A stretch of 18,153 nt of DNA, taken from the NCBI GenBank assembly GCA_016209995.1, contig JACQVC010000218.1, positions 1-18,153 on the forward strand, written 5' to 3'. Below the pieces are notes generated by a model that ran no database searches, had not been told where the DNA came from, and saw only the letters and a list, made by a program, of their open reading frames with translations. This DNA comes from Gemmatimonadota bacterium (GTDB lineage Bacteria; Gemmatimonadota; Gemmatimonadetes; Longimicrobiales; Gaopeijiaceae). Numbering within the stretch: the first letter of the stretch is position 1; each line of letters opens with the position of its first letter. Shown piece after piece: positions 8,024 to 10,789 of this stretch. A program made the translations under genes and the position numbers.

Positions 8024-8425
8024 ATGCGCAGCCATAAGCTGGGGCGGGCCGGCGAGAACCTGGCCGCCCGCCACCTCGAGCGCCGTGGCTGGCGTATCGT
8101 CGAGCGCAACGTGCGCTTCGGCCACAGGGAGATCGACCTCATCGCGGCGAAGGGCGATGTCATCGCGTTCGTCGAGGTGAAGGCGCGCGCCAGCGCGGAG
8201 TTCGGTCACCCGCTCGCCGCCATCACGCACCGCAAGCGCCAGGAGATCCGGACCGTAGCCTCGGAGTGGCTGAGACGTGCTCGCCCCGGAGCGGTCACAC
8301 TCCGCTTTGATGCGGTATCCGTTCTGTTCCGCGAGAACAAGCCGCCGCTCATCGAACACGTCGAGGATGCCTGGCGGATCACCCAGCGGTTCTCGCACGG
8401 ACCAAGGAGGCGAGTCTTTGAGTAG
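8024..8425 (+). CDS. yraN: YraN/UPF0102 family nuclease-like protein
   Basis: 133 residues, the usual size of the family. Visible features: LGRAGENLAARHLERRGW at 6-23, then the PD-(D/E)XK-like core with REIDLIA at 35-41 and FVEVKAR at 49-55, in which Glu36, Asp38, Glu51 and Lys53 would form the metal site. The family resembles Holliday-junction resolvases, but its biological role is poorly defined. A good Shine-Dalgarno sequence, GGGAGAG at 8011-8017, lies 6 bases before ATG 8024. The C-terminus is basic (HGPRRRVFE). It is followed by the long RNA-bearing gap. Its distance to the upstream aroF-type gene is 78 bases, with no visible terminator. Confidence 0.93.
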   Translation: MRSHKLGRAGENLAARHLERRGWRIVERNVRFGHREIDLIAAKGDVIAFVEVKARASAEFGHPLAAITHRKRQEIRTVASEWLRRARPGAVTLRFDAVSVLFRENKPPLIEHVEDAWRITQRFSHGPRRRVFE

Positions 8426-8447
8426 CCTGCGGGGCTGAACTTACGAT
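8418..8447 (+). promoter_or_regulatory. Candidate promoter for the structured RNA segment
   Basis: TTGAGT (8418-8423), overlapping the end of the yraN gene, and TACGAT (8442-8447) are separated by 18 bases and would start transcription near 8454. Each box matches four of six consensus bases. It is supported mainly by position: an ORF-free structured region ending in a strong terminator follows. Confidence 0.33.
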
Positions 8448-8484
8448 CAGGTGTTCGCTGGTACCACCATTCCGCAGCTAAGGT

Positions 8485-8562
8485 GCTCCCGTGGTGGAAC
8501 TGGCAGACACACCTGAGCGTCACTCAGGCGGGCGCAAGCCCCTGGGGTTGACCTGCGGGCGC
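8485..8562 (+). pseudogene. Degenerate tRNA-Leu-like sequence
   Basis: The segment reads like a class II tRNA-Leu: GCTCCCG (8485-8491) as acceptor, TG, D-arm GTGGAACTGGCAGACAC (8494-8510), a perfect 5-bp stem CCTGA/TCAGG (8512-8516, 8524-8528), a variable arm GGGC-GCAA-GCCC (8530-8541) and a 3' strand CGGGCGC (8556-8562) pairing with the acceptor at six of seven positions. It cannot be a normal tRNA: the anticodon loop GCGTCAC lacks U33 and any leucine anticodon, and the T-arm (8542-8555) is only 14 nt with no TTCRA loop or proper stem. It may be a decayed tRNA gene or a tRNA-like domain of a larger RNA. The resemblance to tRNA-Leu is far too long for chance. Confidence 0.5.
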
Positions 8563-8777
8563 TGATTTGGCCACGCCGAGGCGCCGTCGGCCGTATTCAG
8601 GAAACCGTTCGCACGGAACCTGTGGCGGCGTCCTCGGTCGCCTCGCAGAGGGCCACACTCGTCCTTTGGGACCAGCATGAGGGCTGCTCGGCTCCGAATC
8701 CCCCCGGGAGCACGCTTCTTTTGACATTGACAAGGCCGACGCACGACGCAAAATTACTTGAGTGACGCTCAGGTGTG
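8508..8777. repeat. 270-bp unit bounded by 21-base inverted repeats
   Basis: The arm at 8508-8528 is complementary to 8757-8777 over 21 positions, with a single G-T pair at 8527/8758. Similarity extends outward, with gaps, to 8488 and 8794, where CCCGTGGTGG meets CCACCACGGG. Each arm is itself nearly palindromic (CTGAG-CGTCA-CTCAG), so each can also fold alone. The 228 bases between hold no transposase. This could be the closing helix of an RNA or the ends of a MITE-like element; no target-site duplication is evident. Confidence 0.65.
8727..8754 (+). promoter_or_regulatory. Weak internal promoter candidate before the downstream repeat arm
   Basis: TTGACATTGACA at 8721-8732 contains two overlapping perfect -35 boxes. 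CAAAAT at 8749-8754 lies 16 bases after the second one. A transcript from it would start near 8761 and consist of about 70 nt: the right arm, a GTGGTGG-TTA-CCACCAC hairpin and the terminator. Confidence 0.25.
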
Positions 8778-8796
8778 GTGGTTACCACCACGGGGT

Positions 8797-8830
8797 AGCC
8801 CGGGAGCCAGTGGTTCCCGGGCTCTCTTTT
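8797..8830 (+). terminator. Strong Rho-independent terminator
   Basis: AGCCCGGGAGCC (8797-8808) pairs with GGTTCCCGGGCT (8812-8823) over 12 bp, with one G-U pair and a 3-nt loop, followed by CTCTTTT (8824-8830). It lies about 370 bases past the end of yraN and before the SRP RNA promoter, so it most likely ends the structured RNA segment upstream. Confidence 0.85.
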
Positions 8831-8875
8831 CGCTGAGCCTCACCCGCACAACCCAATTTCACCCATTACCTCCGG

Positions 8876-8905
8876 TTGACACTGGTGAGTACGGCCGCGT
8901 AGCTT
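8876..8905 (+). promoter_or_regulatory. Probable promoter of the SRP RNA gene
   Basis: A perfect -35 box TTGACA (8876-8881) and a -10-like TAGCTT (8900-8905) are separated by 18 bases. A start 7 bases later falls at about 8912, which matches the beginning of the closing helix of the SRP RNA. It sits directly after the preceding terminator. Confidence 0.65.
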
Positions 8906-8912
8906 TGAAAGA

Positions 8913-9012
8913 GTGGCCCCAGGTCCGCAGGGCGCGAGCCCACTAACCCGTCAGGACCCCGCAGGTAGCAGCGGTACGTGCGGCGGACGTCGCTGCGGGT
9001 TGCCTGGGGCTT
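8913..9012 (+). ncRNA. ffs: Signal recognition particle RNA (small bacterial 4.5S type)
   Basis: About 100 nt forming one long rod. Closing helix GCCCCAGG (8916-8923) pairs with CCTGGGGC (9003-9010); TCCGCAG (8924-8930) pairs with CTGCGGG (8993-8999); further short helices GCC/GGC, CAC/GTG and ACC/GGT lead to the apex. The Ffh-binding core is present: GTCAGG (8950-8955) opposite AGCAGC (8967-8972), separated by an ACC/GGT helix. In E. coli this helix is UCC/GGA, so the change is compensatory. The apical loop is CCGCA, five bases, not the usual GGAA tetraloop. The RNA works with Ffh and FtsY to target nascent membrane proteins. Its position directly before dnaX is a recurring arrangement in bacteria. 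The final helix followed by TTCTTCTC may serve as its own terminator. Confidence 0.88.
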
Positions 9013-9030
9013 CTTCTCATCCCAACCGTG

Positions 9031-9036
9031 TATAAT
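9031..9036 (+). promoter_or_regulatory. Perfect -10-like TATAAT just before dnaX
   Basis: TATAAT occurs at 9031-9036 in very GC-rich surroundings, one base before the proposed TTG start. No matching -35 box lies 16-18 bases upstream, and the expected start point near 9043 would fall after the TTG. It may be a promoter for a near-leaderless transcript or simply AT-rich sequence that opens the start site. Confidence 0.22.
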
Positions 9037-9037
9037 A

Positions 9038-10789
9038 TTGTCAAACAAGGCGTTAGCGCGTAAGTACCGCCCGCGTCGCTTCGCGGAGGTCGCGACCCAG
9101 GAGCACGTCTCACGGACGCTCAAGCGCGCGGTGGCGAGCGGCCGCGTGGCGCATGCCTATCTGTTTTGCGGTCCGCGCGGCGTTGGCAAGACGACGCTTG
9201 CGCGCGTGCTGGCGATGGCCCTCAACTGCCCGCGGCGAGGAGAGGACGGAGAGCCGTGCGGCGAATGCGAGAGCTGCGAGCGGATCTGGGGAGGGCACAC
9301 GTCGCTGGATGTTGTCGAGATCGACGCCGCCTCGAACCGCGGCGTGGACGATGCGCGTGATTTGCGGGAACGGGCGATGTACGCGCCATCCGACGCAGGC
9401 CGTCATAAGGTCTACATCGTGGACGAGGCGCACATGCTCACGCGCGAAGCGTGGAACGCGCTGCTGAAGGTTCTGGAGGAGCCGCCGCCTCGGGTCATCT
9501 TCGTGTTTGCGACGACGGAGCCGCACAAGATCCAGCAGGCGGCGGCTCCGATCCTCTCGCGTTGTCAGCGTTTCGATTTCCGGCGCATCGGAGTGCAGGA
9601 CATCGTGGCCCGGCTCGAGGAGGTGCTGAGCCGGGAGCAGATGGCCGCTCCGGAAGCGGCGCTGTGGACGATCGCGCGCAAAGCCGATGGCGCCCTGCGT
9701 GATGCGTTGTCCCTGCTGGATCAGGTGCTGGCGTTCACGGACGGCGACGTGACTGACGAGTCCGTGCGCAGCGTGCTCGGACTCGTGCCCCAGGAGCGCT
9801 ACCTGGAGCTATGCGAGATCGTGCTGGGGCGCCGGCCCGGAGATGTCTTCCGCTTCGTCGAGCAGCTCGTCGAGGAAGGGTACGACCTGATCGAGTTCTA
9901 TCATGGCCTGGCCGACGGCCTGCGCACGCTTCTGCGGCTACGTCTCGACCCTGCGGATTCTCCCCCGGATCTGCGTCCTGATCTCAGCGAAGCGTATGCG
10001 GAAAGAGCCGCGCGCTTCGAGGCGGGCGACCTCGTGCGCATGCTAGGGCTGGCGGCGGATCTGGAGACAGACGGGAGTTTGCGCAAGGCGGCGCAGCCGC
10101 GGATTCTCATCGAGATGCTGCTCCTGCGCTATGCGTACCTGGAGCGCACCGTCGAGGTCGAGGAGCTGATCCGCCGGCTGGGCAGCCCGGAGGTTGTGGG
10201 AACGGGCAGCGCCGGCAACCCCGGAGCGGGGAAGGGCGTGGCCTCGCCGAAGGCGTCGCCGGCGCGACAGGGGTCGTCACCAGAGCCGGAGATGCACGGC
10301 CGCGCTGCAGGCCCGGCAGTACGTGAGACCGCGCCGGTCGCGACGCGCACACCGACCGCACCAGCCGCATCGGTCGTACGAGCCTCGACTGAGCCGTCTC
10401 CCGTTCCGGGTGCGAGCGACCCGCCGGCCGCACTCGAGGCGGCCTGGGAACGGATGCTACAGGAAGGCGCCGGTCTGCCGCAGGGCCTCAAGGCTTTCCT
10501 ACGCATGGCGAAGGTGGTGCCGGCAGAAAAGGGGTGGGCCGTCGTGCAGATGCCACCCGGACCGGGTCTCGATCGCCTGCAGGCCGTACGGGTGCGCGCC
10601 CAGGTGGAGGCGGCGTTCCGGGCGGCCCTGGGGGCGGACGTTCGCATAGCGGTCGAGGGGGCCGGAGAGCCGCTGGAGCGGCTGAGTACGGAGGCCGCTC
10701 GCCGCGAGCGGCTGGAGCGCTTGCTGGCGCGGGAACCCGTTCTGGGACGAGCGGTAGAAGAACTGGACCTTGAACTCTTGGACTCGTAG
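9038..10789 (+). CDS. dnaX: DNA polymerase III subunit gamma/tau
   Basis: AAA+ clamp-loader subunit that, with delta and delta', loads the sliding clamp and organises the replisome. With TTG 9038 the protein is 583 residues and opens MSNKALARKYRPRRF, matching the family start; an in-frame GTG at 8978 would lie inside the SRP RNA and is unlikely. No Shine-Dalgarno is visible. Motifs: Walker A GPRGVGKT at 45-52, zinc-binding cysteines 64, 74, 77 and 80, Walker B VDEAH at 128-132, SRC with arginine finger at 174-176. Residues to about 370 form the clamp-loader core. Next comes an Ala/Pro/Gly-rich linker at about 385-465 and a C-terminal domain of about 110 residues, which in tau contacts the polymerase. 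I saw no frameshift signal for a separate gamma form. It is followed by ybaB and recR. Confidence 0.95.
   Translation: MSNKALARKYRPRRFAEVATQEHVSRTLKRAVASGRVAHAYLFCGPRGVGKTTLARVLAMALNCPRRGEDGEPCGECESCERIWGGHTSLDVVEIDAASNRGVDDARDLRERAMYAPSDAGRHKVYIVDEAHMLTREAWNALLKVLEEPPPRVIFVFATTEPHKIQQAAAPILSRCQRFDFRRIGVQDIVARLEEVLSREQMAAPEAALWTIARKADGALRDALSLLDQVLAFTDGDVTDESVRSVLGLVPQERYLELCEIVLGRRPGDVFRFVEQLVEEGYDLIEFYHGLADGLRTLLRLRLDPADSPPDLRPDLSEAYAERAARFEAGDLVRMLGLAADLETDGSLRKAAQPRILIEMLLLRYAYLERTVEVEELIRRLGSPEVVGTGSAGNPGAGKGVASPKASPARQGSSPEPEMHGRAAGPAVRETAPVATRTPTAPAASVVRASTEPSPVPGASDPPAALEAAWERMLQEGAGLPQGLKAFLRMAKVVPAEKGWAVVQMPPGPGLDRLQAVRVRAQVEAAFRAALGADVRIAVEGAGEPLERLSTEAARRERLERLLAREPVLGRAVEELDLELLDS

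Follow-up and report, generated by a model that had tools for sequence, protein, structure and literature searches.

A Leu-type tRNA-like gene and an antisense RNA against its anticodon arm in Gemmatimonadota: a candidate RNA-only toxin–antitoxin or mistranslation switch

One of the questions raised by the 18,153-nucleotide stretch of Gemmatimonadota DNA that was analyzed here (the window) is what lies at positions 8454-8830, between the genes of YraN and DnaX, which NCBIfam confirms on the two sides of the segment. Of the open reading frames of at least 50 amino acids, three on the minus strand (64-75 aa) are contained entirely in the segment and another two extend into it. The fold energy of 8440-8835 is -193.5 kcal/mol, against a mean of -163.1 kcal/mol for dinucleotide shuffles (z -5.5; lower than 100 of 100 shuffles); the reverse strand likewise has a low value (z -4.7), which is to be expected of inverted repeats. 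A sequence-only reading had proposed a single nested non-coding RNA other than RNase P, tmRNA, 6S or a known riboswitch. When the window was scanned with the Rfam covariance models there was no match at gathering score, including the RNase P, tmRNA, 6S, SRP and riboswitch families, and up to E 5 only a sub-threshold SRP match and chance matches appeared. The absence of a known family therefore holds on the sequence level, but the single nested RNA does not, since the segment divides into an interrupted Leu-type tRNA gene and a short antisense RNA gene (Table 1). The SRP-RNA-like sequence, at 8790-9053 upstream of dnaX, overlaps just the end of the segment; with 37.9 bits to RF01854, below the gathering score of 60, it is a probable SRP RNA that has diverged from its family.

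Two putative RNA genes in one segment

The tRNA-like gene has two further copies in the genome of the window. When 39 genomes were searched with the segment, a second copy turned up on a different contig (L003), 82% identical over 250 nt, and a search of 121 genomes with L003 gave a third (L018), where the match breaks off and resumes around an insert. L018 is recognized as a plain tRNA by ARAGORN and by Rfam RF00005 (59 bits, gathering 29). With the inserts omitted, the three copies share a class II cloverleaf with a 7-bp acceptor, D, anticodon, long variable and T arms and A73, and in their alignment this cloverleaf is conserved with compensatory changes. The window copy falls below the RF00005 gathering score and ARAGORN finds no tRNA in the window, because the insert in the T loop interrupts the gene. 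The anticodon loops differ between the copies, being GCGTCAC (Asp-like) in the window, CTCTCAC (Glu) in L003 and CTGGAAC (Ser) in L018; despite this, each copy is followed downstream by the reverse complement of its own anticodon arm. Among other BLASTN matches in genomes of the family, L007 is an ordinary tRNA-Leu, and no element was seen in L002, L011, L013 and L017.

The conserved element begins near 8427, upstream of the segment as first delimited, with a leader in which one of four pairs varies among the three copies and all remain standard pairs. By eye, the leaders (8427-8480; L003 1230-1284; L018 1443-1500) contain 7-9 nt complementary to the 5' anticodon stem and, behind these, a small hairpin, an arrangement that resembles a short version of the trailer. 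A lone leader copy with no tRNA behind it lies at L065 312-349 (G000 contig C484) and is perhaps a decayed element. The Xanthomonas sRNA family sX4 (RF02223), whose consensus looks tRNA-like, aligns weakly (E 0.42) across the tRNA and trailer of L018 (1506-1674).

Table 1. Features of the window copy, in window positions
Feature	Position	Strand	Remark
Leader with small hairpin (CTGCGG 8427-8432 / CCGCAG 8472-8477)	8427..8484	+	similar in the genome's three copies
Leu-type (class II) tRNA-like gene	8485..8712	+	alignment to uninterrupted paralog L018
Acceptor	8485-8491/8705-8711	+	part of tRNA-like gene
D arm	8494-8510	+	part of tRNA-like gene
Anticodon arm	8512-8528	+	part of tRNA-like gene
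Anticodon loop GCGUCAC, anticodon GUC, Asp-like	8517..8523	+	
Variable arm	8530-8541	+	part of tRNA-like gene
T arm	8543-8549/8695-8704	+	part of tRNA-like gene
145-nt insert between T-loop positions 55 and 56	8550..8694	+	homologous 146-nt insert in L003, none in L018
A73 discriminator	8712	+	part of tRNA-like gene
Promoter-like site TTGACA-16-CAAAAT of the putative antisense RNA	8727..8754	+	similar sites in other elements
Short antisense RNA gene overall (putative)	8759-8830	+	antisense, hairpin, terminator
18-nt antisense, perfect complement of 8509-8526 (anticodon arm)	8759..8776	+	
Short hairpin TGGTGG TTA CCACCA behind antisense	8776..8790	+	
Terminator-like stem-loop and T-rich tail	8797..8830	+	

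The 21-bp helix that had been taken to close the nested fold (8508-8528 with 8757-8777) is present, with 18 nt of perfect pairing between 8509-8526 and 8759-8776 and G-U pairs beyond, and it represents the antisense pairing of the anticodon arm with the downstream RNA. The promoter-like site ends 4 nt before the antisense and is the sole such site in 8380-9100 (0.0 expected in shuffles). Also the strong 12-bp terminator was borne out, as a 12-pair terminator-like site at 8797-8823 with a T-rich tail, where about 0.5 such sites are expected in shuffles of the region. Given a promoter-like site in this place, the antisense would be the 5' end of a short RNA that continues into the hairpin and the terminator. 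In the 49 distinct elements collected below, the distance from the best hexamer pair downstream to the matched stretch is 4-8 nt in 48 (14 nt in L118), with a mean promoter-like score of 8.14 against 5.81 in shuffles and a score of at least 9 in 16 of the 49 against 0.8%. The duplex with the antisense is at about -30.5 kcal/mol on average, compared to -2.5 for the anticodon arm alone. The complementarity and covariation of the two RNAs are present in the sequences, and it is the promoter-like sites that suggest separate transcription.

Antisense units can also stand in tandem. L003 has a second promoter-antisense-terminator unit (1690-1820) aimed at a loop like UUGUCAC, for which the 76%-complete genome contains no exact match except the unit itself. 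L233 apparently has three antisense units in a row, up to ~400 nt downstream, of which only the third matches the adjoining tRNA.

One option to be weighed here is that the tRNA-like part and the antisense belong to one transcript in which the long helix is structural. The strong fold of the whole segment would agree with such an RNA, and read-through from the tRNA would yield it. Yet in the window the promoter-like site stands directly before the antisense, with similar ones in other elements, and the long helix cannot form together with the anticodon stem of the cloverleaf, which compensatory changes show to be conserved in its own right; in L233 the cognate unit is several hundred bases away. 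We regard a single cis-folding RNA as very improbable.

Occurrence of the elements in related genomes

Two covariance models were used, one of the leader and body (R1) and one that includes the antisense (R2). Over the order (154 genomes), R1 matched tRNA-Leu in nearly every genome, and two matches in the genus g51 stood out with 87-88 bits against 77 for the next one: L070 (GTC) and L071 (GCG), each with its own matching antisense. In the same order R2 at E <= 1e-8 matched 8 of 154 genomes, which represent three elements and five ordinary tRNA genes without antisense. In the class, at E <= 1e-10, it matched 18 of 394 genomes, and the 16 new loci combine a Leu-type body and a non-Leu anticodon with 10-18 nt of exact antisense, although R2 selects for the antisense and is thus no test for its presence.

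A pattern of the body only (Leu-type D arm, and an anticodon whose middle base is not A) was found at 46 places in 40 of the 394 genomes of the class, and its reversed form at none in these genomes. At 35 of the 46 places a cognate antisense with a score of at least 22 lies within ~400 nt. The same score was reached by 4 of 92 control arms, by 1 of 229 ordinary tRNAs scored alike and by 41 of 2780 non-cognate combinations of loop and trailer. The 11 places without a cognate antisense have the anticodons TGG (4), TGA (2), GTG, GCG, ACC, GGA and TGC. Four Gemmatimonadota loci with Leu-type D arms and the anticodon TGG (L317, L338, L339 and L343) are without cognate antisense and are perhaps another kind of odd tRNA.

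In a public genome collection a narrower pattern gave at least 119 stretches, and among the matches listed a score of at least 22 was found in 15 of 16 from records titled Gemmatimonadota versus 3 of 105 from others. These three, again among the matches listed, are a complete element in an Acidobacteria gp2 MAG (L223), one on a short contig of a Zixiibacteriota MAG (L156), which is possibly misbinned, and L226, which looks like a chance match. In the order of the acidobacterial genome R2 matched 4 of 95 genomes, with one element (L354, the same as L223) and otherwise ordinary tRNA-Leu, one of which (L357) scores 28 for a distant complement; the family of the Zixiibacteriota MAG, as searched, is that genome alone. 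Ten loci in gammaproteobacterial MAGs (L127, L136, L157, L161, L166, L170, L181, L209, L217 and L241) show a Leu-type D arm with CGC, GGC or GGA anticodons and spans of ~96-99 nt, and no downstream antisense. In viral contigs the body pattern gave 71 matches, of which the one with a score of at least 22 is an A/T run, and a pattern of the insert gave two matches whose sequence reads as coding, with no tRNA.

Co-evolution of the anticodon loop and the antisense

In the first five elements, namely the three copies in the window's genome, L070 and L071, both partners have changed in 9 of the 16 pairs that join anticodon arm and antisense, 98.7% of the cells pair, and the signal is lost when the partner is slid by 1-3 columns. 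In the 49 elements, which have 29 loops and 12 anticodons, loop bases 32-38 pair with the antisense in 340 of 343 cells. When the antisenses were dealt at random in 1000 trials the mean was 227.5 and the maximum 252 paired cells, a comparison that describes the pairing and is not a probability, and that overstates it because possession of an antisense was the criterion by which the elements were selected, and because some of them are related and so not independent. Positions 27-31, 39 and 40 are matched as well, while 41-43 are matched much less. The loop and the antisense thus co-evolve base by base in these alignments. The helix that had been singled out in the window is kept by compensatory changes in relatives. 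A decayed insertion, which had been put forward for the case that close relatives lack the segment, does not fit, as the sequence of the helix has changed in the two paralogs of this genome and in other genomes of the class, with the pairing preserved.

Four elements have inserts in the T loop: 145 nt in the window copy, 146 nt in L003, 66 nt in L162 and ~46 nt in L322. The latter two are different from the insert that the window copy and L003 share, and occupy roughly the same position. Between the window copy and L003, four paired positions of the anticodon arm have changed, and in each case the antisense has changed to match. Unless conversion carried the shared insert from one copy to the other, selection was therefore still maintaining the pairing once the insert was in place. 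The inserts could keep all four elements from working as tRNAs, but they may also be spliced out or be tolerated as a fifth arm. The window copy also has C33 in place of U33 and a T-stem mismatch at 49-65, and with its extra arm it may have become a tamed or disabled form, or one that is spliced. The pairing between this copy and its antisense is intact.

The T loops of tRNA genes are common integration sites, and the recurrence of T-loop inserts at about one place could mean that the segment is an inverted repeat acting at the DNA level, part of a mobile element that uses tRNA genes, and has no function as RNA. Against this, G-U pairs occur at drifted positions, which points to RNA pairing, promoter- and terminator-like sites are present and the repeat is confined to the anticodon arm. 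Neither a name among the 8 window proteins searched nor inspection by eye of 10 loci indicated a mobile-element gene, the 8 proteins include no Cas protein, and BLASTN of 8420-8835 against phage and plasmid collections gave no match. We find this explanation hardly credible.

Another hypothesis is that the tRNA-like RNA is a decoy or sponge, which offers its loop to an anticodon nuclease or titrates an antisense whose true targets are ordinary tRNAs. The T-loop inserts would fit a role without decoding, some loops are identical to loops of ordinary tRNAs, such as CTGTCAC of tRNA-Asp, and L003 and L233 carry extra antisense units with no match to the tRNA of the same element. However, the antisense also tracks the stem positions of its own partner (27-31, 39-40), which differ from ordinary tRNAs, and the body, A73 and the cloverleaf have been retained although a loop decoy could do without them. 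This makes a decoy quite improbable.

Borrowed anticodons and a possible mistranslation switch

When the anticodon arm was masked and the elements were compared with 192 ordinary tRNA references, the nearest isotype was Leu in 43 of 43, elements with inserts being possibly cut short. The discriminator is A73 in all 41 ends that were located (two ends were not). A Leu anticodon is absent: the window copy has GUC, and the 49 elements have 12 non-Leu anticodons, which the search patterns demanded and the models R1 and R2 did not. These are CGC (17), GCG (7), GTC (7), GCC (5), CTC (3), GGC (3), GGA (2) and, once each, CGG, TTC, GGT, CAC and GAC. Types with a middle A are under-counted since the body pattern leaves them out; the two Val elements came from R2 and not from this pattern. 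Position 33 is U in 39 elements and C in 10, and position 34 is G, C or U.

Most of the anticodons read very frequent codons. In 11 genes of the window, GCG ranks 1, GAG 2, GCC 3, CGC 5, GGC 7 and GAC 9, and the lower-ranked CCG (13), ACC (21), GAA (24) and TCC (35) are also read; the anticodon GGA, with its rank-35 codon, argues against the targeting of frequent codons. ARAGORN gives uninterrupted elements the identity of the borrowed anticodon (Ser for L018, Arg for L071) and is silent where the T loop has an insert, which shows how such genes escape notice. A review lists LeuRS among the synthetases that select their tRNA without the anticodon, though less so than AlaRS and SerRS (PMC11415595).

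What the sequences show is two genes with promoter- and terminator-like sites, a Leu-type body and a loop that co-evolves with its antisense; that two separate RNAs are transcribed, that the tRNA is leucylated and is silenced by the pairing, that the second RNA is unstable and that the first is toxic is inferred. In the most likely explanation, a mis-decoding tRNA is masked by the antisense RNA, and the two together form an RNA-only toxin–antitoxin or mistranslation switch. RNA 1 would be a leucine-type tRNA (class II body, A73) with the anticodon loop of another amino acid, which may be charged by LeuRS and would then place leucine at, for example, Ala GCG, Arg CGC, Asp GAC or Gly GGC codons. 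RNA 2, an RNA of ~70 nt, would be made just downstream from its own promoter, and its 5' end would pair with the anticodon loop and 5' anticodon stem, so that the arm is opened and decoding is blocked. In the normal state RNA 1 would be silenced; once RNA 2, presumably the shorter-lived one, is lost, RNA 1 would be freed and mistranslation would follow.

That the elements form such a two-RNA, protein-free module, acting as a toxin–antitoxin or abortive-infection switch, we hold to be rather probable. The toxin–antitoxin is favored because most of the anticodons target common codons, presence is patchy, the copies are scattered and no shared partner gene was noticed on inspection of the mechanical flanking ORFs at 10 loci. 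For the fuller reading, a new protein-free toxin–antitoxin or abortive-infection system with re-armed leucine tRNAs as effector and an anti-anticodon small RNA as antidote, in which specificity changes jointly, antidotes can stand in tandem and some copies have a structured T-loop arm, we see an even chance. If a mis-decoding tRNA is silenced in this way, the effector would be built from the decoding machinery itself and the specificity of the antidote would be rewritten by paired point changes; if true, the bacterial use of mistranslation as a weapon or a switch becomes directly testable.

The same anatomy could also serve regulated adaptive mistranslation, in which the odd tRNA is a physiological tool, a possibility that has been discussed for the dual-identity tRNAs of Streptomyces, and the antisense sets its dose rather than acting as antitoxin. 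Naturally mistranslating bacterial tRNAs exist, with a physiological role that is unknown (PMC11415595). The patchy presence (3 of 154 genomes of the order; the pattern in 40 of 394 genomes of the class), the scattered copies and the changing anticodons look more like addiction or defence modules, and a dedicated synthetase gene was not noticed when the flanking ORFs were inspected; we consider this alternative unlikely.

We know of no antisense RNA in bacteria that is directed at the anticodon of a tRNA, and no description of such a tRNA/antisense pair was found in the open-access literature searched. Type VIII toxin–antitoxins such as SdsR/RyeA are two-RNA systems. The ordinary tRNA-Leu (RF00005) has the body, the long variable arm and A73 in common with the elements, which differ from it in the non-Leu anticodon, the linked antisense RNA and, in some copies, the T-loop insert. 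An anticodon is read by an RNA in the T-box riboswitch and a tRNA is mimicked by YrlA, a bacterial Y RNA; in contrast to these, no controlled mRNA or antiterminator was seen at the elements, and a full cloverleaf stands together with an apparently separately promoted antisense RNA.

In CreTA, as described, a rare tRNA is sequestered by CreT, a mini-ORF RNA, whose transcription is repressed by the crRNA-like guide CreA (PMC8501985, PMC10097628). By that description toxin and antitoxin are both RNA and translation is targeted, as we propose here, but RNA 1 has the shape of a tRNA cloverleaf and not of a mini-ORF, and RNA 2 would be a direct antisense of its anticodon arm; the cas genes that accompany CreTA have no counterpart among the 8 window proteins searched. 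The other close system in print is tRNA-ProX/ProRSx, dual-identity mistranslating tRNAs of Streptomyces and Kitasatospora whose biological role is given as unknown (PMC11415595); non-canonical tRNAs are also the subject of PMC7609411. tRNA-ProX has a Pro body, A33, A34 and the linked ProRSx, whereas the elements have a Leu body and mostly C34 or G34, no dedicated synthetase was noticed beside them, and they are linked to an anticodon-arm antisense, which section 17 of PMC11415595 does not mention for tRNA-ProX. What the two have in common, going by that account, is the body of one amino acid's tRNA with the anticodon of another, together with departures at position 33.
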